Shown piece by piece: positions 1 through 11,860 of a DNA stretch of 11,860 nucleotides. Origin of the DNA: an uncultured Flavobacterium sp. (GTDB taxonomy: Bacteria; Bacteroidota; Bacteroidia; Flavobacteriales; Flavobacteriaceae); the NCBI RefSeq assembly GCF_946479975.1, contig NZ_CAMLIX010000159.1, positions 1 through 11,860 of the forward strand, given 5' to 3'. Position 1 is the first letter of the stretch. Each line of letters begins with the position of its first letter. Both the position numbers and the translations under genes were made by a program. A model generated the notes under the pieces. It made no database searches. It had not been told where the DNA came from and saw only the letters and a list, made by a program, of their open reading frames with translations.

Positions 1-3000
1 AATGGTATTGCCTAGCGATTTATAATCATCAAGTTTTTGTGTTATTACTGAAACATCATCTTTGCTACTGTTTATAATTGTAGCAAGTGATTCACGTGAA
101 ATAAATTTTTCTGATGCTACAAAAAACCTTACAATAATTGCTTTTTTGCTGTTGTCTAAGGTTTTAGTTAAAAGATTTTTAATATAATACCATTGAATAG
201 ATTCTTTTACTGCATTTACATAAACACCAGAAACAACTTGATGTAAAGCCGCACCGACTGCACAAGCTACAGCAGCTTCTTCTATGGTACTCTTAAATTC
301 TTTAGTATTTCCTTCTCTGACATTGCGTAATACGGTGTCACCCAAAACTGAAATAGCTCCAAATGAACAAGTTTCTTTCCATCCTATATTTGAAAAGTAA
401 GCACTAGCACAACTAACCAATGGACTCATATAGGAAGTTGGTATACCAACTCCATTGTACTCAGCTACTAAATTATTTATAATAACTTGTAACCCTATAT
501 CAAAAGCGAGATTCTCTAAGCATTTTTTGTTTTGTGAGCCTAAATATTCCAAAGATAAAGTATACGCTTCTGCGGATAAATAATATTCTGCAGCAACGTA
601 TATGGATGGTATTGCAACTGATGCTACCAAAACTGATTTGCCAATTAAATTTGATAAAGCTTCAGCTGCTGAGGTTCCTTTACGAAGTTTAGTTGCTAGT
701 TTTTCTTGTGACGTACTAAGAGATATTTGAAATTCAATACTATCATTATTGGTAATGTCCTGATTAGCGGGACAGCTTAAAATGAAAGTCTTTTCAACAT
801 TTTGAATTCTAAAATTATCCAGAAGTTCAATTCTGAAACTTTCTGTACCTGAAGAATTTTGTAAATATTCAATTTTAAAGGTATTAGGATATTCAAGAGT
901 TCTATTAGTACTTTTAACATTACTTAATATTAATCGACATATTTTATCTAAATTTTGTTCACTATCTAATAAATTTTTTATCGCAAGTAATTGTTCATTT
1001 ACACTAAGCCTCTCTAGGTTGATTACAGATTGATTCTTTTTGTTTTCTAAGAACTTAATTATTTCATCCCATTCTGCTGATGTATATTGCTTATTAAATA
1101 TATCATAGCATTTTCCAGTGTTTCCACAGATTTCGGCAATTTCATTAAGAGGAAGAGACTTAAGTAAGTTTTGTATTATGCTAATTTTTGCAGCGCCTAG
1201 GTCTTTAATTTTATCATTTAATTGAGCAAAATCAGCAACAGGAAGCGTATTTTCATATCTTGTTATTATAGCTTTTTTATAATGGACTTTCTCGGTTAAT
1301 GGTTTTGCTCCTTCAGTATCTTTCGCAATCTTGTTTAACTCATCTACATAGCAAAGCACCAATTGTATTTGACCAGGCGATGGATTTTTAAGATATCGTA
1401 TTATTACTTTTTTTTCTACTTTCTCTTCTATAATAGTAAACTCAGATTTGGCAACATCAAAACGAACATTTTTTTGATCAAAAGTAATTTGATATCCTTT
1501 ATAATAAAAAATGCTATTTGATACTCCTGCGAATGTAAATACAGTTTGATTTAAATTTTCTTTTCCTTCTAAAAACTCAGTTGTAATTAAAGATGCAGCC
1601 CCAGAAGAACTCTTTTGAAAACCATAAAACTTCCATCCGCCACTATGAATAACCTCCCAATCATTATGAGATAAAACAGTACCATTTCCATAATCAATTA
1701 AAAGATTTGTTTTTCCTGATTCTCCTATATTTGAGAAAGGATGCTTTAGTCCAAAAATTCCGTGCCCTAATTCGTGTGCTGCTGTTCTTAAGTCTCCATT
1801 ATTAAATACAAATGCGTATTGACCTCCAAGAGGCATAAAACCTTTATAAGAGTTTTGACCAGCTTTTCCAGTGTATAAAACATAGTAAGTTTTATCATTA
1901 TATATGAAATCTGTACTAGATTCTATCTGATTTATAATACTATTTTGATCCTCTGTGTAAACATTAAAAATGTCGCTATCTCCACATTTGATTTCGTCCG
2001 GAAGGGTAATATTATTTAATTTTTTTATACGAACCTCAAATTGAATTCCAACCTTGTTATAGATATCGTTGAGTTCTTCTTTTGCTTTATCGACATCTGG
2101 TGTAACGGCACCGTTAATGCTTATAAATGTTACATTTATTGCAGGTTTTTGAGTTAAATCCCAAACGTTTACTTTACCAGCAATCTCAGATTTACTTTGA
2201 ATAGTTTTACTTGGATCTTGCGGGTCTTTTTCTTCTTTACCTTTAACGGTTGCAATTATACTGTACTTGCCGAAATCAAATTTCTTGGTAAGTTTTATTG
2301 CCGCTTTCGAGTCACTTATCCATTCAAAATCGACTTCTTCTCCAGCACTGGTTTTAAAAATAATGTCATCTTTTGTTTTTCCATTTTTAAAACTACCGTC
2401 GGCATAGACGTACTCTTGATGATTATTGAATAAATCAGATACTGCTTTATAATCAACATTATAAGTGCCCCCAGTAGCAATATCAATTGTTTCGTAGGTT
2501 TGCAAAATCTTTGGTGCTCCATTTACAGGCAATCTGTCATAAGCATACTTATTGTTATCACTGCTGTTCGAAATGCTATTTGAAAAAGTAATCTGGACAT
2601 CTTTAGATGATATTTGAGTGACATCACCATTGCTAGATACCCCATTGGTATTTGACGCGACAGCTTTTCCTCCATCTGCAGCTTTTGTAATTACAGGTTC
2701 TCCTTTTCCATTTGCGGGAATTGTAACGGTACTTCCATTTTTATCGGTGTAGACCTGATTATAAGGTGATTTTGGGACTGGAGTGATAGCTCCATTTTCT
2801 CCTTTTATGGTAACACTCCCATCAGGATTTAAAGTTGCAGACTCTACAACATAACCTAATGTCCCTTCTTTAGGTTTTCCATCGCTACCAAATACATCAG
2901 TGATAATTTTATCACCATCGATCATACCTTTCCATTCAGGATCATATGCAGCGATAATCTCTCCTGAAATCAGTTTAAAATCAGTATTCAGTCCGATGTT

Positions 3001-4437
3001 ATTGAATGTAATTCGGATACGAGTATTTTCGCTTAAATTAAATTTTGCTTTTGTGTCATCATCTTGATCTCCTTCAGCAAGTGCATCGGCAGCGTCAATT
3101 AATAATCTGAATTTTTCTATGAAAGGAAATGTTACATACCCATCACCTGAAAAAGATCCGTTACTTCCTGTTGCATGGAGCACAACTACAGGAAAATCAC
3201 CAGCTGAAATTACATCATTTGGAAAAAGTTCTGCTAAAGGTGTCTTGTTTGCTAAATCTGCAGGATCGGGTTTTATACCACAGCCTTGAAAAGCAATTTC
3301 ATCTCTAACAAGTGTATTAAATTCTTTAACTGTACTGTGAGTATATTTTCCAACATCACAAGATGAGCCAACACTATATTCATAGGTTGTATTGGGTTTA
3401 AGATTGGTAATAACTACGTTTTCTCTTGGAGTGACTACTTTATACCATTCAGAATCTGCATTCTTTTCGCGGTAATTTACCTGATAATCAAAGTTATCGA
3501 TATTTCCTGACCAAGATACTTTAGCTTGATTTTCGCTAATTCCATCTACGTTTATTGCTAGAGGAGCGGTACAAAACACTTCGTAATCAAAAAAGAAAAT
3601 TTCACTGAATCCGTTATTTTTAAAAACCCCAATTTCTTCTGCTCCTAAGAGTGCTTTTGCTTTTACTCTCCAAGCATACCTTTTACCAGGAATTAACTGT
3701 GGTTCTGATACTCCGTATTGTACTGTAGTAGTGCGTGTTGTAGTAGTATATAGAGGAGGAGAATATGCAAATGCATTTTGTATAGGTGTATATTTATCCC
3801 ATATTTCTACTAAAGAAAACTCATATTCTACATTACTAACATTGATTTGGCGAGGTGTCCAGCTGAAAATGATGTTCTGAATATTTTGCTGCATTATTGC
3901 TGCATTATTCAAAGGAAGATTTAAAAACGGCGGATCATTTTGAAAAATAACAGTTGTTACACTAGTTTTCTTTGAAAGTTTTTTATTGGTTGCAAAATCA
4001 TAGACCTCTACAGAAAAAGAATAAATCCCTTCAGGAAGGGCTTGTGCATATTGATTTGGATTAATACCAAGGAGATTTTGATATTGAAAATAGGGTGCCA
4101 AATCTATATTAGTCAACTGAATAGGTACTCCGCCTTCTAGAAAAAGATCGTGTGCTCCAACTACAAAATCGTTTGTCATTAATGAAATAGACTGTCCTTG
4201 GAAATAACATTTTAATCGAATTTGTCGATTAGAAATCGTTAAATCATTTAAAGCAATCTGCACTTTTATAGGGCTATTGATGGTAGACGCATCAGCATAA
4301 TTGCTCAAATAAATTGGTGAAGGCTGTGTAATCTGTGTGCTAATCGTTACGGGATAAGTTTGTGCTATACCAGAAATTATTGCCGAAAGCCAAAACCCAA
4401 GGGTTAATAATAGTTGAAATTGTAGTTTTTTTAGCAT
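1..4437 (-). CDS. TANFOR/fibronectin III/metallopeptidase-like large secreted protein, candidate polymorphic toxin (3' end beyond window)
   Basis: The frame is open for 1479 codons from ATG 4437 to the left edge, with no stop in the window. Residues 1-26 form a signal peptide (MLKKLQ, a hydrophobic core, then GIAQ) with no lipobox. Residues 27-170 resemble the TANFOR domain (YPVTISTQ near the start, LPEGIYSFSVEVYD at 135-148). Residues 171-285 are beta-rich with IFSWTPR and YAWRVKAK. Residues 288-375 are a fibronectin III domain. Residues 376-760 are beta-rich without a recognised family. Residues 765-935 look like a zinc metallopeptidase with HELGHGIFGLKH at 888-899. The last 220 residues include hydrophobic stretches near 1263-1290 and 1387-1408. 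N-terminal delivery domains, a protease-like middle and an unseen C-terminus fit Bacteroidota polymorphic toxins. This is inference, since the effector end and any immunity gene are outside the window. It follows the barrel gene by 41 bases. Confidence 0.88.
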   Translation of the reverse strand, partial: MLKKLQFQLLLTLGFWLSAIISGIAQTYPVTISTQITQPSPIYLSNYADASTINSPIKVQIALNDLTISNRQIRLKCYFQGQSISLMTNDFVVGAHDLFLEGGVPIQLTNIDLAPYFQYQNLLGINPNQYAQALPEGIYSFSVEVYDFATNKKLSKKTSVTTVIFQNDPPFLNLPLNNAAIMQQNIQNIIFSWTPRQINVSNVEYEFSLVEIWDKYTPIQNAFAYSPPLYTTTTRTTTVQYGVSEPQLIPGKRYAWRVKAKALLGAEEIGVFKNNGFSEIFFFDYEVFCTAPLAINVDGISENQAKVSWSGNIDNFDYQVNYREKNADSEWYKVVTPRENVVITNLKPNTTYEYSVGSSCDVGKYTHSTVKEFNTLVRDEIAFQGCGIKPDPADLANKTPLAELFPNDVISAGDFPVVVLHATGSNGSFSGDGYVTFPFIEKFRLLIDAADALAEGDQDDDTKAKFNLSENTRIRITFNNIGLNTDFKLISGEIIAAYDPEWKGMIDGDKIITDVFGSDGKPKEGTLGYVVESATLNPDGSVTIKGENGAITPVPKSPYNQVYTDKNGSTVTIPANGKGEPVITKAADGGKAVASNTNGVSSNGDVTQISSKDVQITFSNSISNSSDNNKYAYDRLPVNGAPKILQTYETIDIATGGTYNVDYKAVSDLFNNHQEYVYADGSFKNGKTKDDIIFKTSAGEEVDFEWISDSKAAIKLTKKFDFGKYSIIATVKGKEEKDPQDPSKTIQSKSEIAGKVNVWDLTQKPAINVTFISINGAVTPDVDKAKEELNDIYNKVGIQFEVRIKKLNNITLPDEIKCGDSDIFNVYTEDQNSIINQIESSTDFIYNDKTYYVLYTGKAGQNSYKGFMPLGGQYAFVFNNGDLRTAAHELGHGIFGLKHPFSNIGESGKTNLLIDYGNGTVLSHNDWEVIHSGGWKFYGFQKSSSGAASLITTEFLEGKENLNQTVFTFAGVSNSIFYYKGYQITFDQKNVRFDVAKSEFTIIEEKVEKKVIIRYLKNPSPGQIQLVLCYVDELNKIAKDTEGAKPLTEKVHYKKAIITRYENTLPVADFAQLNDKIKDLGAAKISIIQNLLKSLPLNEIAEICGNTGKCYDIFNKQYTSAEWDEIIKFLENKKNQSVINLERLSVNEQLLAIKNLLDSEQNLDKICRLILSNVKSTNRTLEYPNTFKIEYLQNSSGTESFRIELLDNFRIQNVEKTFILSCPANQDITNNDSIEFQISLSTSQEKLATKLRKGTSAAEALSNLIGKSVLVASVAIPSIYVAAEYYLSAEAYTLSLEYLGSQNKKCLENLAFDIGLQVIINNLVAEYNGVGIPTSYMSPLVSCASAYFSNIGWKETCSFGAISVLGDTVLRNVREGNTKEFKSTIEEAAVACAVGAALHQVVSGVYVNAVKESIQWYYIKNLLTKTLDNSKKAIIVRFFVASEKFISRESLATIINSSKDDVSVITQKLDDYKSLGNTI
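1633..2145 (-). other. Metzincin-like zinc peptidase domain with extended HExxH motif
   Basis: This spans residues 765-935 of the large secreted protein. An early strand and helix (INVTFISING, then DKAKEELNDIYNKVGIQFEV) lead into HELGHGIFGLKH at 888-899. H888 and H892 would bind zinc, E889 would be the catalytic base, and H899 is a candidate third ligand. The third histidine is seven residues after H892, one more than in canonical HExxHxxGxxH metzincins. Where a Met-turn would be expected the sequence reads NLLIDYGNGTVLS (911-923), then NDWEVIH. Related Bacteroidota proteins often have NLMDY here, as I recall, so the Met is replaced by Leu-Ile. Activity is plausible because all three histidines and the glutamate are present. 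Confidence 0.7.
3928..4359 (-). other. TANFOR-like N-terminal domain of the large secreted protein
   Basis: This spans residues 27-170, immediately after the signal peptide. The pattern TYPVTIS, PIYLSNYAD, IKVQIALNDL, GGVPIQL, DLAPYF and LPEGIYSFSVEVYDF matches my memory of the roughly 150-residue TANFOR domain, named after Tannerella forsythia. That domain sits at the N-terminus of large secreted Bacteroidota proteins, including polymorphic toxins. The assignment is from recall of the pattern rather than a profile search. If it is not TANFOR, it is still an export-side beta-sandwich-type module. Confidence 0.62.
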
Positions 4438-4478
4438 GGGGTGTATATATAACTATTGTACTTTAAAATCTGTGTTTC
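4438..4478. other. 41-base intergenic gap, no terminator seen
   Basis: This gap lies between the TAA of the barrel gene and the ATG of the large secreted protein. It is AT-rich with no inverted repeat or T-run typical of a terminator. There is no Shine-Dalgarno sequence before ATG 4437, as is normal in Bacteroidota. The short gap supports co-transcription of the two genes. Confidence 0.6.
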
Positions 4479-6920
4479 TTAATGTTTTAATTCGATAGAA
4501 TCGCTTACTGCCTTTTCTAATGCAAGCTGATGATAAAACGGAATCATTTTCTCTTCTAATTGTCCGCTTATTTCTTGGACATTTTTTTTGTCTTTAAATT
4601 CAAAATAATTGCCAATTTCTTGTTTGCTGAAAACTGCTATTGATTCGTTATGCTGTAATTCGTTTTTTGGTAATTTGGCAAGAAGAGCAAATTCTTTCAT
4701 CATCCATCTGTGATTGATTAACTGCTGCTCTGCTTTTTTACTTCTTTCAACTAATTTTAAATATCTGTTGTAAGCTGTCTTGTCTTTAGCTTCTTCAGTA
4801 TTTATACCGTGCATTTTGTCTGTATTGACACGACCGATTGCAGCGACATAAACCTGTTCGATATTTTCGTCTTTTGCAGAGATCTCTCGATTTAATTTCT
4901 GAACAATTTCAAATAATACATTATTATAATCAGAAATCGTTTCTTTATTGGCATTGTATGCATCAAGATAATCTAGAACTTTTTCTTTGAATTCTTTGTC
5001 TTCTAAAGTCATTCTTACAACCTCCAAGAGCTTATCCAATTTTTGTACTTCTGAGTCAGGCAGGGGGCTTAAATTGTTTTGAAGTTGTTCTAATTTATTA
5101 ACGATTTCACTTTTTGTTCCTTCCAATGTAATTCCGTTAGACGAAACTTTTAGAATATTTTCTGCTATTTCTTTGTTATCTTCTGGTTTTTCTTCCACAC
5201 GTTTTGGACGAAGTTTTATTTTATCAAAAGAATAAGTATAAGATAAAGTTGCTGTCAAGTCATTTTTACGGACATTTTGAGAACTGCTGAAAAGTGTAAT
5301 AACATTCAATCCCATATTATGTTTCTGAAGATAGATGTACGAACTATTTAAACGAATATTAAAAATGTCGTTTATTTTATCTCCATTACTAAAACTAGTG
5401 TTGTAACTAGTGGAAAATGAAGTATTTATTTTCTTGTCGTAGAATAATTTTGTAGCACCAATCGTTGGGCCTACAATTAAATTATTGCCTGTATCGAGTT
5501 TGCCAATTGTGCTATTTAAAGAAGCGGTTAGGTTTAAATCTTTTTTTGGATAACCTAAAATATAGGAAAGCCCAGTGTTATAATAAGTACTGGCGCCACC
5601 CTCAATAGTTTTTCCTTGCTGCTGATTTACCGCGTCCTGCATGCTGAAATTTGCATTGAAAGCTTGTTTTTGTGTTTTATTATTCTTTAAAAGATAGTTA
5701 ATCGTAATTGCTGCATTTTGATTGACTTGCCTGAAATTTAGAGTATCTAAATAATCAAATTGTGAAGTTTGATTGATGTAGTCAAATTGATTTCGGCTGT
5801 TGGTGTACGACTGAAAATTAGAATAATTTAAGTTGAAATTCAACTTTTGAGTAGCTCTGAAATCGGCACTAATGGACGAAACTAGTCTTTTCATCTGACT
5901 TTGTTTCTGCTTGTCTAAGTTGTCTTTTTGTAAACCTAAATTAAGATTCAAACTTAATTTATCTTCATATAAAGTTTGTGAAGCATTAACAGTAACATTT
6001 TCTAAATCATTATTAAAATAATAACCTCCTAATGTTCTGTAATTTGGATCAATGCGCTCGTAACCTAAACCTAAAGTTCCTTTTCCTGCAGGATAGACTA
6101 ATTGTCCTTTCAATGCTTTGTAGCTAGAAGTTGTAGTATTAGAGTTTAAGAACAAAGAGGCAGCATTTTCTGCTTTTGTGTTTTGAGTGACTCTTGTATC
6201 TTCCGTAATGCTGCTGTTTGCAAATTCGGTTTGTACTTGTAATTTTTTGAAAAGTTTAAAAGAGGTTTCAAAACTAATTGCTGCATTTTCTTTTGGCGAT
6301 ACACCAAGCTCAAACGGAATAGGAGTAGACAGCGAATTCAACTCATCTTTGGCTTTAAAAAAGGTAAGTCCGAGATTTATTTTTTCTAATGCATATTGTG
6401 TTTTAAATCCGTAACCCATTCTTTTGTAAGTTGGAACAAGTTCGCTGTTTAAAGCATCGTATTCACTGCTTCTAACTAATCGCCCATACATAGCGCTGAT
6501 TTTAAATTTGCCTTGCGGCGTCAAATCTACACCCAGACCTGTAAATTGGTATCCTGCAAGAGTATATGGAGAAAAAGTCATACTTACGTCTCCAATATGT
6601 CCGGTAATCCATTTGTAAGATGGATGAATACTCAGTCGATTCATAAGAACCGGTTTGTTATAACCAAACTTTTGGTTGGTATATGAAAATGAAAATGGGA
6701 TATTGTATAAACCAGCGACATTCACATTAATATTTCCGTTTAAGAAATAGGTAAAAGGTTCTCTGGCTGCGTTACCAGAATAAAATACTCCGTTGGCAGA
6801 AGCGCCTCCAGAGACATTTATTAATTTAGCTTTTCCTAATTCTTCAACATTAAAATTCTGTGCAAATCCGAAGGTATTGTACATTAGTATGCTGAAAAAT
6901 AATATTCTTTTTAAACTCAT
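4479..6920 (-). CDS. Outer-membrane beta-barrel protein with C-terminal helical domain
   Basis: This 813-residue protein starts at ATG 6920. It opens with a signal peptide (MSLKRILFFSILMYNTFGFAQ), with cleavage likely at the A20-Q21 region. From about 35 to 570 the chain is a succession of amphipathic strands with alternating aromatic or aliphatic residues and polar Asn/Ser/Lys-rich turns, as in a large outer-membrane barrel. Examples are NIPFSFSYTNQ at 73-83, HIGDVSMTFSPYTLAGYQF at 108-126 and DLTATLSYTYSFD at 554-566. From about 571 to 813 it changes to a charged, helix-rich domain that could be periplasmic or surface-exposed. No TonB box or plug domain is seen, so it is not an obvious SusC-type transporter. 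It is also far longer than the PorP/SprF family that usually accompanies SprB. Position between the SprB-repeat gene and the TANFOR-type gene suggests it anchors or exports one of them (inference). Exact function is unknown. Confidence 0.87.
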   Translation of the reverse strand: MSLKRILFFSILMYNTFGFAQNFNVEELGKAKLINVSGGASANGVFYSGNAAREPFTYFLNGNINVNVAGLYNIPFSFSYTNQKFGYNKPVLMNRLSIHPSYKWITGHIGDVSMTFSPYTLAGYQFTGLGVDLTPQGKFKISAMYGRLVRSSEYDALNSELVPTYKRMGYGFKTQYALEKINLGLTFFKAKDELNSLSTPIPFELGVSPKENAAISFETSFKLFKKLQVQTEFANSSITEDTRVTQNTKAENAASLFLNSNTTTSSYKALKGQLVYPAGKGTLGLGYERIDPNYRTLGGYYFNNDLENVTVNASQTLYEDKLSLNLNLGLQKDNLDKQKQSQMKRLVSSISADFRATQKLNFNLNYSNFQSYTNSRNQFDYINQTSQFDYLDTLNFRQVNQNAAITINYLLKNNKTQKQAFNANFSMQDAVNQQQGKTIEGGASTYYNTGLSYILGYPKKDLNLTASLNSTIGKLDTGNNLIVGPTIGATKLFYDKKINTSFSTSYNTSFSNGDKINDIFNIRLNSSYIYLQKHNMGLNVITLFSSSQNVRKNDLTATLSYTYSFDKIKLRPKRVEEKPEDNKEIAENILKVSSNGITLEGTKSEIVNKLEQLQNNLSPLPDSEVQKLDKLLEVVRMTLEDKEFKEKVLDYLDAYNANKETISDYNNVLFEIVQKLNREISAKDENIEQVYVAAIGRVNTDKMHGINTEEAKDKTAYNRYLKLVERSKKAEQQLINHRWMMKEFALLAKLPKNELQHNESIAVFSKQEIGNYFEFKDKKNVQEISGQLEEKMIPFYHQLALEKAVSDSIELKH

Positions 6921-7015: not shown

Positions 7016-9931
7016 TTACTGTATAATTAGTTTTCTCAACTTGGTTCCCTGCTGTGATTCAAACAACACAAAATAAATTCCTGATGAAAGTCCGCTTAAA
7101 CTAAAATTGAACGAGTACGCATCTTTTCCATTTTCATTTCTAGAATCTATTACCACATTATTATGAAGGTTATAGACTTTGATACTTGCCGGCATTATTT
7201 TATCTAACGTTATATCAACAGTAAATAATCCGTTTGATGGATTTGGATAAAGTTTCATATCAAACCTTTTCTGTAAATCACTTTCATCTGGATCAACATA
7301 TTCTCCTTCTGTAACTATGATTGTTTTCGTTTGATAAGCTGTACATCTTCCTTTTACCGTATTTAATGAAATGTCATATTCACCCGGTTTTGTAAAAGTC
7401 ATTTCTGCGTAATCACCATTATTGGTTGTAACAATTGCCTCTGACGGTAATTTCCATTCAATTTTATCTGCTTTTGGATTACTGATATCAACAATAATAA
7501 ATTTCTCATTAACAAATACTTGAGATGACATAGCAAACTCGGCACTAATATCAGATTCCTGACTAGAAATATTAATTGTATCTGTTGCCTCACAACCTAA
7601 TTTATTTGTTACAACTACGGTATAATTAGCAGGCTCAGAAACTGTTATTATTGAATTTGTGCTTTTAAACCCTTTGTCAGAACTCCATAGATATGTTGCT
7701 TTATCATCATCGATTGCCGCATTAATGGTCAAGCTTTGCTTATAACAAAGCGTTACATCTTCACCTAAGTAAATAATGTCTTTTGGAGGATCCACAACAT
7801 TGTATTTTCTTGAAATTTTACAACCTCTAGCATCAGTTATTTCAACAGAATATTCACCATTAGACGCATTGCTCAACGTATTTGTTTTTTCTCCTGTGTT
7901 CCATAAGTAAATAAATGGAGCAGTTCCTGCAATTGGAGTTACCACTATTTTCGCATCAGAACCTAAATAACATGTCGGCATTTTAATCATTTCTGAAGCA
8001 TCTAAATGTGGTGGAGCAACAAAAGAAATTGATTCAGTTGTTTTACAGCCGTTAAAATCGGTAACAGTTACAGAATAAGTTCCGGGAGATACGTTTTTGA
8101 GTGTTTCAGTTGTGACTCCCGTATTCCATAAATAGCGGTATGGTTTTGTTCCTCCGGTTGGAGCAGGTGTAATCGTCCAATCATTTCCATCACCGCAAAG
8201 CGTGTAATCTGCAGAAAGTGTATTCGCTATTTTTTGAGGTTCGTTAATAATAAATGAATCACTTTTTGCAATATTGTTTTTAGTATCTGTCACCTCAACA
8301 TAATAAGTTCCTATTCCCAGGCCACCTAGAGTTACATTTGTACCTAAAACGGTCTGATCTAAAATAGAATACCATTTGTAAGTGTAGCCCGCAATACCTC
8401 CAGAGGCATTAGCTCTTAGACTTGCATTTTTATCTCCATTACATAAAACAGCACTTACTGAGGAAATGGTAGACACTAATAGATCTGGTTGCGTAATTTC
8501 ATAAATATCAGATGTGATTGAACAACCTTTTGCATCTGTTGCAATTGCATAATATTTACCAGCAGGAAGATTTACAACTGTTGCAGTAGTTCCTGTTACG
8601 GGAATATTTGTATTAGTAAACCATTTATAATTGTAATTTATTGTTCCGCCTTGAACAACTATGTTGATGCTTCCATTTGAAAGTCCGAAACCTGTTGCAG
8701 GTATTATTGTTTTTTGACTAATTAAAAGTTGTTTCGGTTCTGTAACTTCAACGTTAACTACTGAAGTATAATTACAGCCCTTACTGTCTTGAACTTGTAT
8801 GTCGTAAATATTGGCCTTTAAATTTGGAATTAAAGCTGTACGATTATCAAAAGCAACCCAATTACCGTAACCAGTATCTTGAGATTTGTAGCGGTATTGG
8901 AAAATATTGCTTCCGCCAGCTGCAGTTAAGGTTATTGTACCATCGCTGTATCCTAAACAATTTACATTTTTTTGTACGTAGGTAACAACAATAGGATCTG
9001 GCTGTGTAATTACAATTGATTTACTTGTAACTTCTACTTTATTGAAGTCTTTTACAACAGCATAGTAGCTTCCAATTTCAAGATTACTTAATAAAGCATT
9101 TGATTCGTTAGGAATTTTTACACCGTTTTTATACCAAGAAATAGTTCTTATACCGAAACCGCCTTTTACAACTGCAGTTATTGAACCATTTTTACCATTA
9201 TTACAAGTTATTTCTGCAGATTGGGTAATGCTGATTTCAAGAACATTATTGTTAAAATCAAATTCTGTAGATTTTGTACATCCAGTAGCATCGGTTGCAG
9301 AAACAGTAAAAATGCTGGAAGCAAGATTGGTAAAATCAACTTGTTTTAAAGTCGAGTTTGGAACGTCTTTTATTATTTTTCCATTGCTATCTCGACATAC
9401 ATATTGGTAGGGAGCGACTCCGCCAACAATTTCAATATGAAGTGCGCCATTGTTGTTTCCAGAAGTTGGAATAGTAGGAACAATTTTATCCAAATCAAAT
9501 CCAAAATCTTGAGGCTGGTCTATGATAATATTTTCTAAGATTCCAACACATAAATTACCATCATATGCACTTACAGAATAATTTCCTTTTCTTAAACTAT
9601 ATTGATTTTTATCTGTACTTCCGTTACTCCATAAATAAGTATAAACAGGCGTTCCGCCAATGATATCTGGAGTTCCTCCTGTAACATTGATTTCAACCAC
9701 ACCATCAAATCCATCGAAACAAGTAACATTTTGTATGTTCGTTGTTTGAACAATAATTTGAGTTGGCTGTTTTAATTCGAATAGAGGAGAAGTAGTCTTG
9801 TTATTATTAGAATCAATTACAGTTACATAATAATTTCCAGTTGGTATATTTCCAGTAATTGCTTCGATATTTTTTGTCGTGTTTATTAATGTTCCGTTTT
9901 CTTTATACCATTCGTAGGTGTAGAAACCTTC
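7016..9931 (-). CDS. C-terminal-side fragment of SprB-repeat protein with T9SS type A sorting domain
   Basis: This open frame follows directly after the premature stop and begins EGFYTYEWYKENG, the second half of the interrupted repeat. There is no ATG for the first 77 codons. The first possible initiator is a GTG at 9700, inside the conserved strand of the next repeat (VVEINVTGG), with no ribosome-binding or domain-boundary support. Independent translation is therefore unlikely. The segment holds about nine further repeats, for example VTCFDGFDG, VNCLGYSDG, ATGFGLSNG and VLCNGDKNA. A PKD/Ig-like module comes next (ISAEFAMSS to KTIIVTEG, about 7300-7560), then an acidic linker (EYVDPDESD) and the sorting domain. 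Without the upstream part it has no signal peptide, so as a separate product it could not be exported. Confidence 0.75.
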   Translation of the reverse strand, partial: EGFYTYEWYKENGTLINTTKNIEAITGNIPTGNYYVTVIDSNNNKTTSPLFELKQPTQIIVQTTNIQNVTCFDGFDGVVEINVTGGTPDIIGGTPVYTYLWSNGSTDKNQYSLRKGNYSVSAYDGNLCVGILENIIIDQPQDFGFDLDKIVPTIPTSGNNNGALHIEIVGGVAPYQYVCRDSNGKIIKDVPNSTLKQVDFTNLASSIFTVSATDATGCTKSTEFDFNNNVLEISITQSAEITCNNGKNGSITAVVKGGFGIRTISWYKNGVKIPNESNALLSNLEIGSYYAVVKDFNKVEVTSKSIVITQPDPIVVTYVQKNVNCLGYSDGTITLTAAGGSNIFQYRYKSQDTGYGNWVAFDNRTALIPNLKANIYDIQVQDSKGCNYTSVVNVEVTEPKQLLISQKTIIPATGFGLSNGSINIVVQGGTINYNYKWFTNTNIPVTGTTATVVNLPAGKYYAIATDAKGCSITSDIYEITQPDLLVSTISSVSAVLCNGDKNASLRANASGGIAGYTYKWYSILDQTVLGTNVTLGGLGIGTYYVEVTDTKNNIAKSDSFIINEPQKIANTLSADYTLCGDGNDWTITPAPTGGTKPYRYLWNTGVTTETLKNVSPGTYSVTVTDFNGCKTTESISFVAPPHLDASEMIKMPTCYLGSDAKIVVTPIAGTAPFIYLWNTGEKTNTLSNASNGEYSVEITDARGCKISRKYNVVDPPKDIIYLGEDVTLCYKQSLTINAAIDDDKATYLWSSDKGFKSTNSIITVSEPANYTVVVTNKLGCEATDTINISSQESDISAEFAMSSQVFVNEKFIIVDISNPKADKIEWKLPSEAIVTTNNGDYAEMTFTKPGEYDISLNTVKGRCTAYQTKTIIVTEGEYVDPDESDLQKRFDMKLYPNPSNGLFTVDITLDKIMPASIKVYNLHNNVVIDSRNENGKDAYSFNFSLSGLSSGIYFVLFESQQGTKLRKLIIQ
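7019..7255 (-). other. T9SS type A C-terminal sorting domain
   Basis: The last 79 residues start KLYPNPSNGLFTVDITL. They continue through IKVYNLHNNVV and FSLSGLSSGIYFVLF to the end KLRKLIIQ. The order YPNP-x-x-G, IxVYN, LSxGIYFV and a short Lys/Arg-containing tail is the classic type A sorting signal. It directs periplasmic cargo through the type IX translocon, where it is cleaved and the protein is attached to or released from the surface. It shows that the intact repeat protein was meant to be outside the outer membrane. Confidence 0.93.
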
Positions 9932-9934
9932 TTA
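9932..9934 (-). other. In-frame premature TAA inside a SprB-like repeat
   Basis: The minus strand reads CCT ACT TAA GAA GGT TTC, with the same frame open for at least 642 codons before and 971 after. A single-base change from a sense codon (for example TAC, CAA, GAA, AAA or TCA) is enough to explain it. No homopolymer or frame change is involved. The flanking peptide GTGVPT / EGFYTYEWYK makes one normal, slightly expanded repeat turn when joined. Confidence 0.85.
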
Positions 9935-11860
9935 AGTAGGAACACCAGTTCCAATTTCGGCTTTAGCTCTTAAAATACCAGTTGAATTAAAACAATCAAT
10001 AGATTTAGCAATAGTAATTGCTACTTCTAGTTTTTTTGGCTGAATAATTTCAAAAGTTTTTTCCAGATTACAATTTTTGCTGTCTGTAACTATCAAATGG
10101 TATGAACCTGCAAATTGATTGTCTAAGATGGCTTGAGTTTGACCAATAATTTCTATATTGTTTTTATACCATTTATAAGAATAATTTTTAGTTCCTCCTG
10201 TTATTTCAACTGTGATTTTTCCGTTATTTAATCCAAAACCAGAAGCGTTTTTGACTTCGTTATCTTTAAAATTTAAACTTACAGCGGGTTCTGTAATTTC
10301 TATAGTTTTAGTTATCTTACAATCAACAGCATTATTATCTGATATTGTTACGTTATAAATACCATGAGAAAGTCCAGAAATTGCAGATTTTCCGTTATTA
10401 ATAGAAGATTCTGTCCAGACAATGCTATAGTCAGAAGAACCTCCAGCTATGTTTAAAGTTATTGTTCCGTCACTTTCGCCTTTACAAGAAACTTCTGTTT
10501 TAGTAAAAGTAGCTGCTAATGGATCTGGCTCTGTGATGGTATATTCATTTACTCCATTTAACTTGTTAGTATTTTGGTCTGTAACTTCTACAATATATTG
10601 TCCAGCCCCTAAACCAGGTGTGGTCTCAGTAGTCGATAGAATTTGAGTTTTATCCAATTTATTATACCATTTGTAAATATATCCTGGAACACCACCTTTT
10701 ACTTTTACTGTTAATATAGCTGTTTTATCACCATGACATTTTATCTGTGTATTTTGTTTCATCACTAAACTTTCAATTTCTAAAAGATCTGGTTGTGTTA
10801 AGGTGAAATCTTTACTAACGGGACATTGGTTTTTATCTTTCACTGTGACAACATAAGAACCAGCTTTCAGTTTATCTATTTTATTTGTGGTTGCAAATAC
10901 AACGTCAGAATTTTTTAGTGACCAAGAGTAAGTGTAATCACCAGCACCATCGATTCCTTCAACTTCAAGAATACCATTTTCTGTTTCGAAACCTTTTAAG
11001 TTCTTCTCGGTAATAGTTTTGATAGCCAGTTTAGCGTTTGGCTGACCTACTTTAATCCCTTTAAGATCAACCTCGCAATTATTTTTGTCTTTAACTAAAA
11101 CATTGTAAGTTCCAGCATAAATTGCCGTTAAATCTTTTGAAGAAGCGACAAAATCCTTATCATCATCTTTTGTCCACACATAAGTGTAATCTGTTGTTCC
11201 TCCTTGAACATTAATTTGAATTGATCCAGTTTTTTCTCCAAAACACAAAACATCTCCAACATTTGAAGCTAGTTTAACTTTTAGCGGATTTGGTTCTGAA
11301 AGTGTGATTTCTGCATTTGCTTGCGCACCAACTTTATCACTAACCATTACTTTATATTTTCCAGCATTTTTGCCTGATATTTTATTACTTGTGTCACTAA
11401 TATCTATATAAGCGCTGCCTTCTAACTTAGACCATTTATAGGTGTAATCGTTATTGCCTCCAGTAACTTTAGCTGTGATTTCTCCATCAAAATATCCAGA
11501 ACATTTAATAGCAGAACTTTCTGTTAGTTTTACTTCTATCATTGGATTTTCTTCGACCTTAAAAGTTTGGCTGACACTGCATGAGTTATCATCTGTTACG
11601 GTTAAAGTATAATCACCAGCTTTAAGTCCGCTAATATCTTTTGTGTTTGAGGGGATAGGGGCAGTAGTATTGGATGTCCAATTATATTGGAGTGTTCCTG
11701 TACCGCCAATTGCATCGGCCATACTAATTGCTCCAGTACTTTGCCCATTTATTAAGACTTTTGTTATTGCTGGAGTTTGAATTACAATTGCTGGAGGATT
11801 AATTATTTTAAATAAAACAATTGCCGAACAATTATTTGCATCTATAACTGTTACTTCATA
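9932..11860 (-). CDS. N-terminal-side fragment of SprB-repeat protein (5' partial, ends at premature TAA)
   Basis: The window shows 642 sense codons plus the stop. The frame is open through the right edge (YEVTVIDANNC at the edge), so ATG 11722 (MADAIGGTG) is an internal methionine within a repeat and not a start. The fragment contains the tail of one repeat, seven complete repeats and half of another. Repeat openings include IKCSGYFDG, VLCFGEKTG, IKCHGDKTA and VSCKGESDG. It stops after GTGVPT, in the Gly-rich turn just before the expected YTYxWYK strand, which reappears at once on the other side of the stop. No signal peptide or sorting domain is present in this part, since the N-terminus is outside the window. 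Confidence 0.8.
   Translation of the reverse strand, partial: YEVTVIDANNCSAIVLFKIINPPAIVIQTPAITKVLINGQSTGAISMADAIGGTGTLQYNWTSNTTAPIPSNTKDISGLKAGDYTLTVTDDNSCSVSQTFKVEENPMIEVKLTESSAIKCSGYFDGEITAKVTGGNNDYTYKWSKLEGSAYIDISDTSNKISGKNAGKYKVMVSDKVGAQANAEITLSEPNPLKVKLASNVGDVLCFGEKTGSIQINVQGGTTDYTYVWTKDDDKDFVASSKDLTAIYAGTYNVLVKDKNNCEVDLKGIKVGQPNAKLAIKTITEKNLKGFETENGILEVEGIDGAGDYTYSWSLKNSDVVFATTNKIDKLKAGSYVVTVKDKNQCPVSKDFTLTQPDLLEIESLVMKQNTQIKCHGDKTAILTVKVKGGVPGYIYKWYNKLDKTQILSTTETTPGLGAGQYIVEVTDQNTNKLNGVNEYTITEPDPLAATFTKTEVSCKGESDGTITLNIAGGSSDYSIVWTESSINNGKSAISGLSHGIYNVTISDNNAVDCKITKTIEITEPAVSLNFKDNEVKNASGFGLNNGKITVEITGGTKNYSYKWYKNNIEIIGQTQAILDNQFAGSYHLIVTDSKNCNLEKTFEIIQPKKLEVAITIAKSIDCFNSTGILRAKAEIGTGVPT

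Follow-up and report, generated by a model that had tools for sequence, protein, structure and literature searches.

Cysteine placement follows a three-repeat cycle in an SprB-repeat array protein of Flavobacterium and suggests disulfide staples between neighbouring domains

The DNA analysed here (the window) is the 11,860-nucleotide stretch at positions 1 to 11,860 of contig NZ_CAMLIX010000159.1 from an uncultured Flavobacterium sp. (assembly GCF_946479975.1). Its main feature is a gene for a protein built of SprB repeats, in which the placement of cysteines recurs every three repeats and suggests how neighbouring repeats may be joined. In Bacteroidota, such arrays make up surface proteins of great length. 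The gene occupies 7016-11860 on the minus strand, with its 5' part beyond the window. An in-frame TAA stop at 9932-9934, overlooked in the preliminary description of this stretch, splits the array into two reading frames, the frame being open on both sides. Because each of 32 close relatives (L001-L014 and L063-L080) has its array in a single unbroken frame, the stop seems to represent a recent loss or a sequencing error. Both pieces of the gene matched PF13573 (E-values 1.1e-42 and 1.6e-38; 143.8 and 130.4 bits, Pfam cut-off 28), and a domain at 7022-7252 matched both PF18962 (Por_Secre_tail; 3.5e-12, 46.9 bits, cut-off 27) and TIGR04183 (4.1e-10, 39.5 bits, cut-off 23), which places the protein among the type A substrates of the type IX secretion system (T9SS). 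The window gene's own 5' end lies outside, and a signal-peptide-like stretch was recognized, by eye only, at the N-terminus of the orthologues.

Three types of repeat can be told apart by their cysteines: A has one at the start and another at the end, B has only the end cysteine, and C has only the start cysteine. They follow one another as B C A B C A B C A B C A B C (R01-R14), and three short repeats with both cysteines come after them. All lie on the minus strand; each cysteine is given below by the first base of its codon, and the partner named for a start cysteine is the one predicted by the joint rule argued for later. The window opens with the end of a type A repeat (R00, 11792-11860, end cysteine 11830), which corresponds to repeat 6 of orthologue L001. 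The first cycles comprise R01 (B, 11543-11791, end cysteine 11581), R02 (C, 11291-11542, start cysteine 11503, predicted partner 11077 in R03), R03 (A, 11039-11290, start cysteine 11245 with predicted partner 10825 in R04, end cysteine 11077), R04 (B, 10790-11038, end cysteine 10825), R05 (C, 10526-10789, start cysteine 10738, predicted partner 10321 in R06) and R06 (A, 10286-10525, start cysteine 10486 with predicted partner 10072 in R07, end cysteine 10321). They are followed by R07 (B, 10037-10285, end cysteine 10072), R08 (C, 9764-10036, start cysteine 9994, predicted partner 9550 in R09), which holds the stop, R09 (A, 9512-9763, start cysteine 9721 with predicted partner 9280 in R10, end cysteine 9550), R10 (B, 9245-9511, end cysteine 9280), R11 (C, 8999-9244, start cysteine 9205, predicted partner 8776 in R12), R12 (A, 8735-8998, start cysteine 8959 with predicted partner 8524 in R13, end cysteine 8776), R13 (B, 8486-8734, end cysteine 8524) and R14 (C, 8237-8485, start cysteine 8443, predicted partner 8047 in R15). 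The short repeats are R15 (8009-8236, start cysteine 8197, end cysteine 8047), R16 (7784-8008, start cysteine 7972, end cysteine 7822) and the divergent R17 (7559-7783, start cysteine 7747, end cysteine 7594), with predicted partners for their start cysteines at 7822, 7594 and 7345, respectively. The last of these is the lone, end-type cysteine of a PKD-like domain (approximately 7319-7558; matches to PKD and BiPBP_C below their cut-offs), after which the sorting domain closes the protein. In the orthologues, a lone cysteine stands 64 residues past the last repeat cut in 11 of 14 cases, 63 in two and 65 in one. An additional mid-domain cysteine of R10 (9397) is present at that repeat in eight of the 14 orthologues.

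The fixed order of the three types, and the spacings of 253, 255, 254 and 254 codons that had been reported between the start cysteines of type A repeats, proved exact (codons 206, 459, 714, 968 and 1222, counted from base 11860). The cycle runs beyond the limits that the preliminary description gave it, and in relatives it covers the whole array. Orthologues were taken from 14 Flavobacterium loci of the 18 found, the remaining four being more distant; all 14 have unbroken frames (1639-2207 codons) and all keep the B-C-A order, so that a cysteine arrangement recurring every three domains, as proposed earlier, is well supported. Thirteen of them contain 23 repeats, namely seven B-C-A cycles plus two repeats, and the other (L014) contains 17, or five cycles plus two. 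A cruder count with wider windows agreed, apart from one off-site cysteine in repeat 5 of L013. After addition of 18 further close relatives (L063-L080), domain counts in the resulting set of 32 proteins were 17 (15 proteins), 23 (13), 24 (two), 29 (one) and 15 (one). The 160 A-to-A spacings in this set range from 241 to 276 residues, with a mean of 254.4 and a standard deviation of 7.6. The expected period of 254 residues in homologues thus holds as a mean and fails as a fixed length; as the conserved quantity itself it was rejected. Since the spacing varies in this way, it is the order of the cysteines, and not length, that is conserved.

Which cysteines pair cannot be read from the window by itself. 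One wiring, in which the start cysteine of a repeat is joined to the end cysteine of the next, uses 24 of its 27 cysteines. The wiring of the preliminary description, with a disulfide inside each type A repeat and another from the end cysteine of B to the start cysteine of C across their joint, also uses 24. We therefore compared SprB-repeat proteins more widely, in the best 120 of 5617 matches and, with a different array protein as query, in the best 120 of 1741; the cysteine calls were anchored on a hidden Markov model with tolerance windows, and the proteins share ancestry. In the first set (3707 repeats), the start cysteine of one repeat and the end cysteine of the next were both present at 2978 joints, both absent at 565, and one-sided at 28; in the second, the corresponding numbers were 1575, 308 and 10. 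When redundancy was reduced by keeping a single representative from each of 70 SprB-array protein clusters, only 13 of 1592 junctions were mismatched, compared with a mean of 246.5 after shuffling of repeat order, and this offset of +1 was the best of nine tested for the co-occurrence of start and end cysteines. In the same representatives, pairing of an end cysteine with the start cysteine of the next repeat gave 325 mismatches in 1592 junctions, and pairing within a repeat 355 in 1678. The C-A and A-B junctions thus receive one cysteine from each side, and the B-C junction, which had been thought to be the linked one because it has both cysteines close by, becomes the junction without a pair. 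In other proteins, free joints occur every two or four repeats, or not at all; the period of three is therefore one setting of a joint code.

The positions of the cysteines in the fold agree with this. An AlphaFold2 model of five window repeats, based on 69 aligned sequences, had a mean pLDDT (predicted local distance difference test) of 93.2 and a predicted template modelling score of 0.63. In it, the three start cysteines all fall between strands one and two, and each of the four end cysteines immediately precedes the final strand. A single-sequence search of the PDB gave weak matches (best E-value 0.00053), and a profile-based search, which was stronger, showed that the chain resembles tandem immunoglobulin-like (Ig-like) proteins, the best match being GhpA of Aureispira. 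In Ig domains, the A-B loop and the F-G turn are at opposite poles, so a bond within one repeat is unlikely and a bond across a joint is natural. Each repeat would turn the pole with its A-B loop, which holds the start cysteine, towards the following repeat, and the opposite pole, with the end cysteine at the F-G turn, towards the preceding one.

We consider it quite probable that disulfides staple the domains to each other, the start cysteine of each repeat bonding the end cysteine of the next. If so, each joint is either stapled, with both cysteines present, or free, with both missing. The C-A and A-B joints would be stapled and the B-C joint free, and the protein would be a string of C=A=B three-domain modules separated by unstapled joints, with its last repeat closed by the lone cysteine of the PKD-like domain. 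The bonds earlier proposed within type A and between B and C do have in their favor that the cysteine counts balance and that an end cysteine and the following start cysteine are close in sequence (a median of 25 residues in 258 cases). Against them stand the many mismatches of both their pairings (325/1592 and 355/1678, versus 13/1592), the established Ig-like topology with the two sites at opposite poles, and 17 of the 78 arrays in which all of the inner repeats have both cysteines. In these 17, a start-only repeat opens the array close to the N-terminus and a single cysteine follows a short way beyond its last repeat; a chain of start-to-next-end bonds requires exactly this at its two ends, and under the earlier wiring these cysteines would stay unpaired. 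That wiring is thus unlikely.

A number of observations weigh against the inter-domain staples, beginning with the tie between the two wirings in the window, which only the cross-family comparison decides. The mismatch counts given above are raw, and the mismatches were interpreted by eye. Twelve of the 28 in the first set involve an off-site cysteine, four a partner displaced by an insertion, five a partner moved to the linker, three a loss of both partners masked by an extra cysteine and two a cut first repeat, and two are real; P0094 and P0096 keep a start cysteine without its partner, which is unexplained. Of the 10 in the second set, five concern end domains that are cut or partial, in P0177 an additional cysteine lies near the joint, P0216 is a partial match and those of P0204 and P0206 adjoin an insertion, which leaves one unexplained mismatch (P0180). 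Three of the 32 close relatives (L072, L074 and L075) have an irregular first module and begin ABCBC. In all 14 orthologues, the first repeat is of type B; because it is the outermost, the joint rule leaves its end cysteine unpaired, and yet this cysteine is conserved.

The array ends also include difficult cases. In a loose test, which accepts any cysteine up to 130 residues before or 110 after the array and so includes chance matches, 61 of the 78 arrays had a suitable cysteine at both ends, in agreement with the staples, whereas 17 lacked one (nine at the start and nine at the end, including one at both). Many of these 17 are, by eye, cut fragments; P0228, P0174, P0189, P0193, P0203, P0231 and P0235, however, reach a signal-like start or a sorting domain. 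The last six have an extra cysteine near the mature N-terminus and another in the last repeat, with none after it, and were counted as differently capped and not decisive. Furthermore, 16 of the 39 arrays that are of type A throughout their interior and start within 60 residues of the N-terminus open with type A instead of a start-only repeat. Twelve of these have an additional cysteine upstream of the first start cysteine; P0173, P0190, P0199 and P0202, in which the array begins within the first 20 residues, have none. Some further arrays are simply unusual. In L032, a second array protein of F. quisquiliarum (2399-5575), a start-type cysteine precedes the first full repeat, two free joints lie four repeats apart, and the last repeat is end-only. 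Start-only and end-only repeats alternate nine times in P0188. A further cysteine recurs about every 76 residues over much of the length of P0117.

The co-occurrence of start and end cysteines could also partly reflect the copying of blocks of repeats, and in the extreme case the cysteines would simply be inherited with the blocks and have no structural partner. Such copying is real. P0018 and P0020, which are more distantly related, show an identity of 0.55 and 0.71, respectively, between repeats three apart, compared with 0.24-0.32 at offsets of one, two, four and five, and some repeats three apart are almost identical (up to 0.98 and 1.0). The three-repeat block is therefore the copying unit in these two proteins, and together with repeat counts of 17, 23 and 29, which are two cycles apart, this bears out the earlier proposal that the gene changes length by three-repeat blocks. 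An excess of identity at multiples of three was clear in L001, P0018 and P0020 (matched by none of 2000 shuffles in each) and weak or absent in L011, L012 and L014 (54, 68 and 353 of 2000). These comparisons were made with the cysteine neighborhoods masked; in L001, the identity was 0.303 between repeats of one type and 0.278 between the others. It had been expected that every third repeat, and not neighbors, would group together. In L001, 14 of 20 repeats did have one of their own type as the closest, and the closest was never adjacent, but the same-type proportion was only 10/20, 10/20 and 7/14 in L011, L012 and L014. Likewise, in a tree of 54 repeats with the cysteine neighborhoods masked, the labels A, B and C do cluster, with 10 label changes against a shuffled mean of 25.9 (none of 200 shuffles was as low); the tree has 66 usable columns, and near-copies from orthologues inflate this clustering. 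The predicted separation of A, B and C into three clean clades was not seen in it. The three-repeat block probably serves as the copying unit of the window array as well.

Copying without a structural role for the cysteines, however, is even more doubtful than the earlier wiring, since the identical joint rule is obeyed in arrays with periods of two and four as well as three and in irregular arrays, and since single free joints inside otherwise complete arrays (P0215, P0227, P0229 and P0226) follow it too. In P0112, moreover, five repeats without a start cysteine have a linker cysteine at the same joint instead. (The relocated cysteines of P0112 recur about every 300 residues.) Array lengths differ mostly by whole modules; under the staple reading, the reason may be that cutting within a module would strand cysteines without partners and could be selected against. 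Metal binding, or bonds between fibres bundled side by side, is very improbable: the unpaired end cysteine of the first repeat, in 14/14 orthologues, could act in this way at the tip, but inter-chain bonds would not be expected to produce so strict a +1 co-occurrence within a single chain.

Stapling at all but every third joint would, if true, set where the fibre can bend. A sequence rule that predicts each disulfide, including its absence, makes stiffness and hinge spacing testable by single-cysteine changes, and it counters the intuitive, though probably mistaken, idea that a repeat's two cysteines are bonded to each other. The unpaired cysteine of the first repeat could have a role at the fibre tip. 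A broader and more tentative proposal, to which we give somewhat less than even chances, is that SprB-type fibres carry a joint-by-joint disulfide code, in which the spacing of free joints (two, three, four or none) is heritable, whole modules are gained or lost, and hinge spacing and reach are set thereby; here the code would be at work in a polymorphic-toxin-like cassette, with a conserved unpaired cysteine in the outermost repeat.

The cassette consists of the array gene and two further genes on the minus strand, and relatives of both follow the array gene in all 14 loci. The first (4479-6920) encodes an 813-amino-acid protein that is beta-barrel-like by eye and has no Pfam or NCBIfam match. 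It is next to the array in the fetched flank of 15 of the 18 further relatives (L063-L080); among 395 genomes of the class, 73 have relatives of it, mostly of the first 570 residues, and a SprB-repeat frame lies upstream of them in 15 of 30 loci looked at. The second gene (1-4437) runs off the window and encodes a large protein with fn3 domains and the motif HELGHxxxGLKH; an HExxH motif is present in 12 of the 14 loci. The C-terminus diverges between relatives: the best match to the window's large protein stops at residue 947-991 in 11 of the 14 loci, two stop at 515, and one continues throughout. Of 10 relatives scanned for their C-terminal parts, two have recognizable domains, PT-HINT (L005) and the nuclease Endonuclea_NS_2 (L013). 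Differing, unrelated small open reading frames follow the large protein in an immunity-like position, although their immunity function is putative. The large protein is thus polymorphic-toxin-like. No NCBIfam model matched the window's large protein up to an E-value of 10, in a release that may not contain the TANFOR model.

TANFOR loci of Bacteroidetes, as described in passages of PMC7073777, have SprB-repeat T9SS substrates upstream of TANFOR toxins. The window shares with them a SprB-repeat T9SS substrate, whose gene heads the cassette, upstream of a toxin-type protein with a variable C-terminal domain and a downstream gene of putative immunity function. Since polymorphic toxins with such substrates upstream have been described before, this kind of cassette is already known, and its array more probably acts as the cassette's surface fibre than as a gliding adhesin. 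The main text of PMC7073777 contains neither the word cysteine nor the word barrel, and a middle gene like that of the 813-amino-acid protein is not mentioned in its passages.

SprB of Flavobacterium johnsoniae belongs to the same PF13573 repeat family as the window protein. According to passages of PMC12635249, however, the gliding adhesin SprB belongs to the type B substrates and is carried by SprF, whereas the sorting domain of the window protein is of type A. As for an SprF partner gene, the gene next to the window's array is that of the 813-amino-acid protein without a Pfam or NCBIfam match. SprB repeat arrays have the same start and end cysteine sites (in L031, a SprB-repeat frame of 4502 amino acids from F. 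quisquiliarum that is truncated at the edge of the locus, 39 of 40 repeats are of type A and the finish is end-only), and the window differs from them in lacking the cysteine pair at every third joint. No report of disulfides in SprB repeats was found in the open-access literature searched, most subscription papers being outside its scope, and passages of PMC12618676, PMC9870892, PMC10994853 and PMC8078820 do not describe them; the nearest are the disulfides of SprF with GldK, in passages of PMC12635249. The closest fold match to the window repeats is the grappling hook protein GhpA of Aureispira sp. CCB-QB1 (cryo-electron microscopy structure 9flp and others), and the deposited GhpA structures may already show such bonds.
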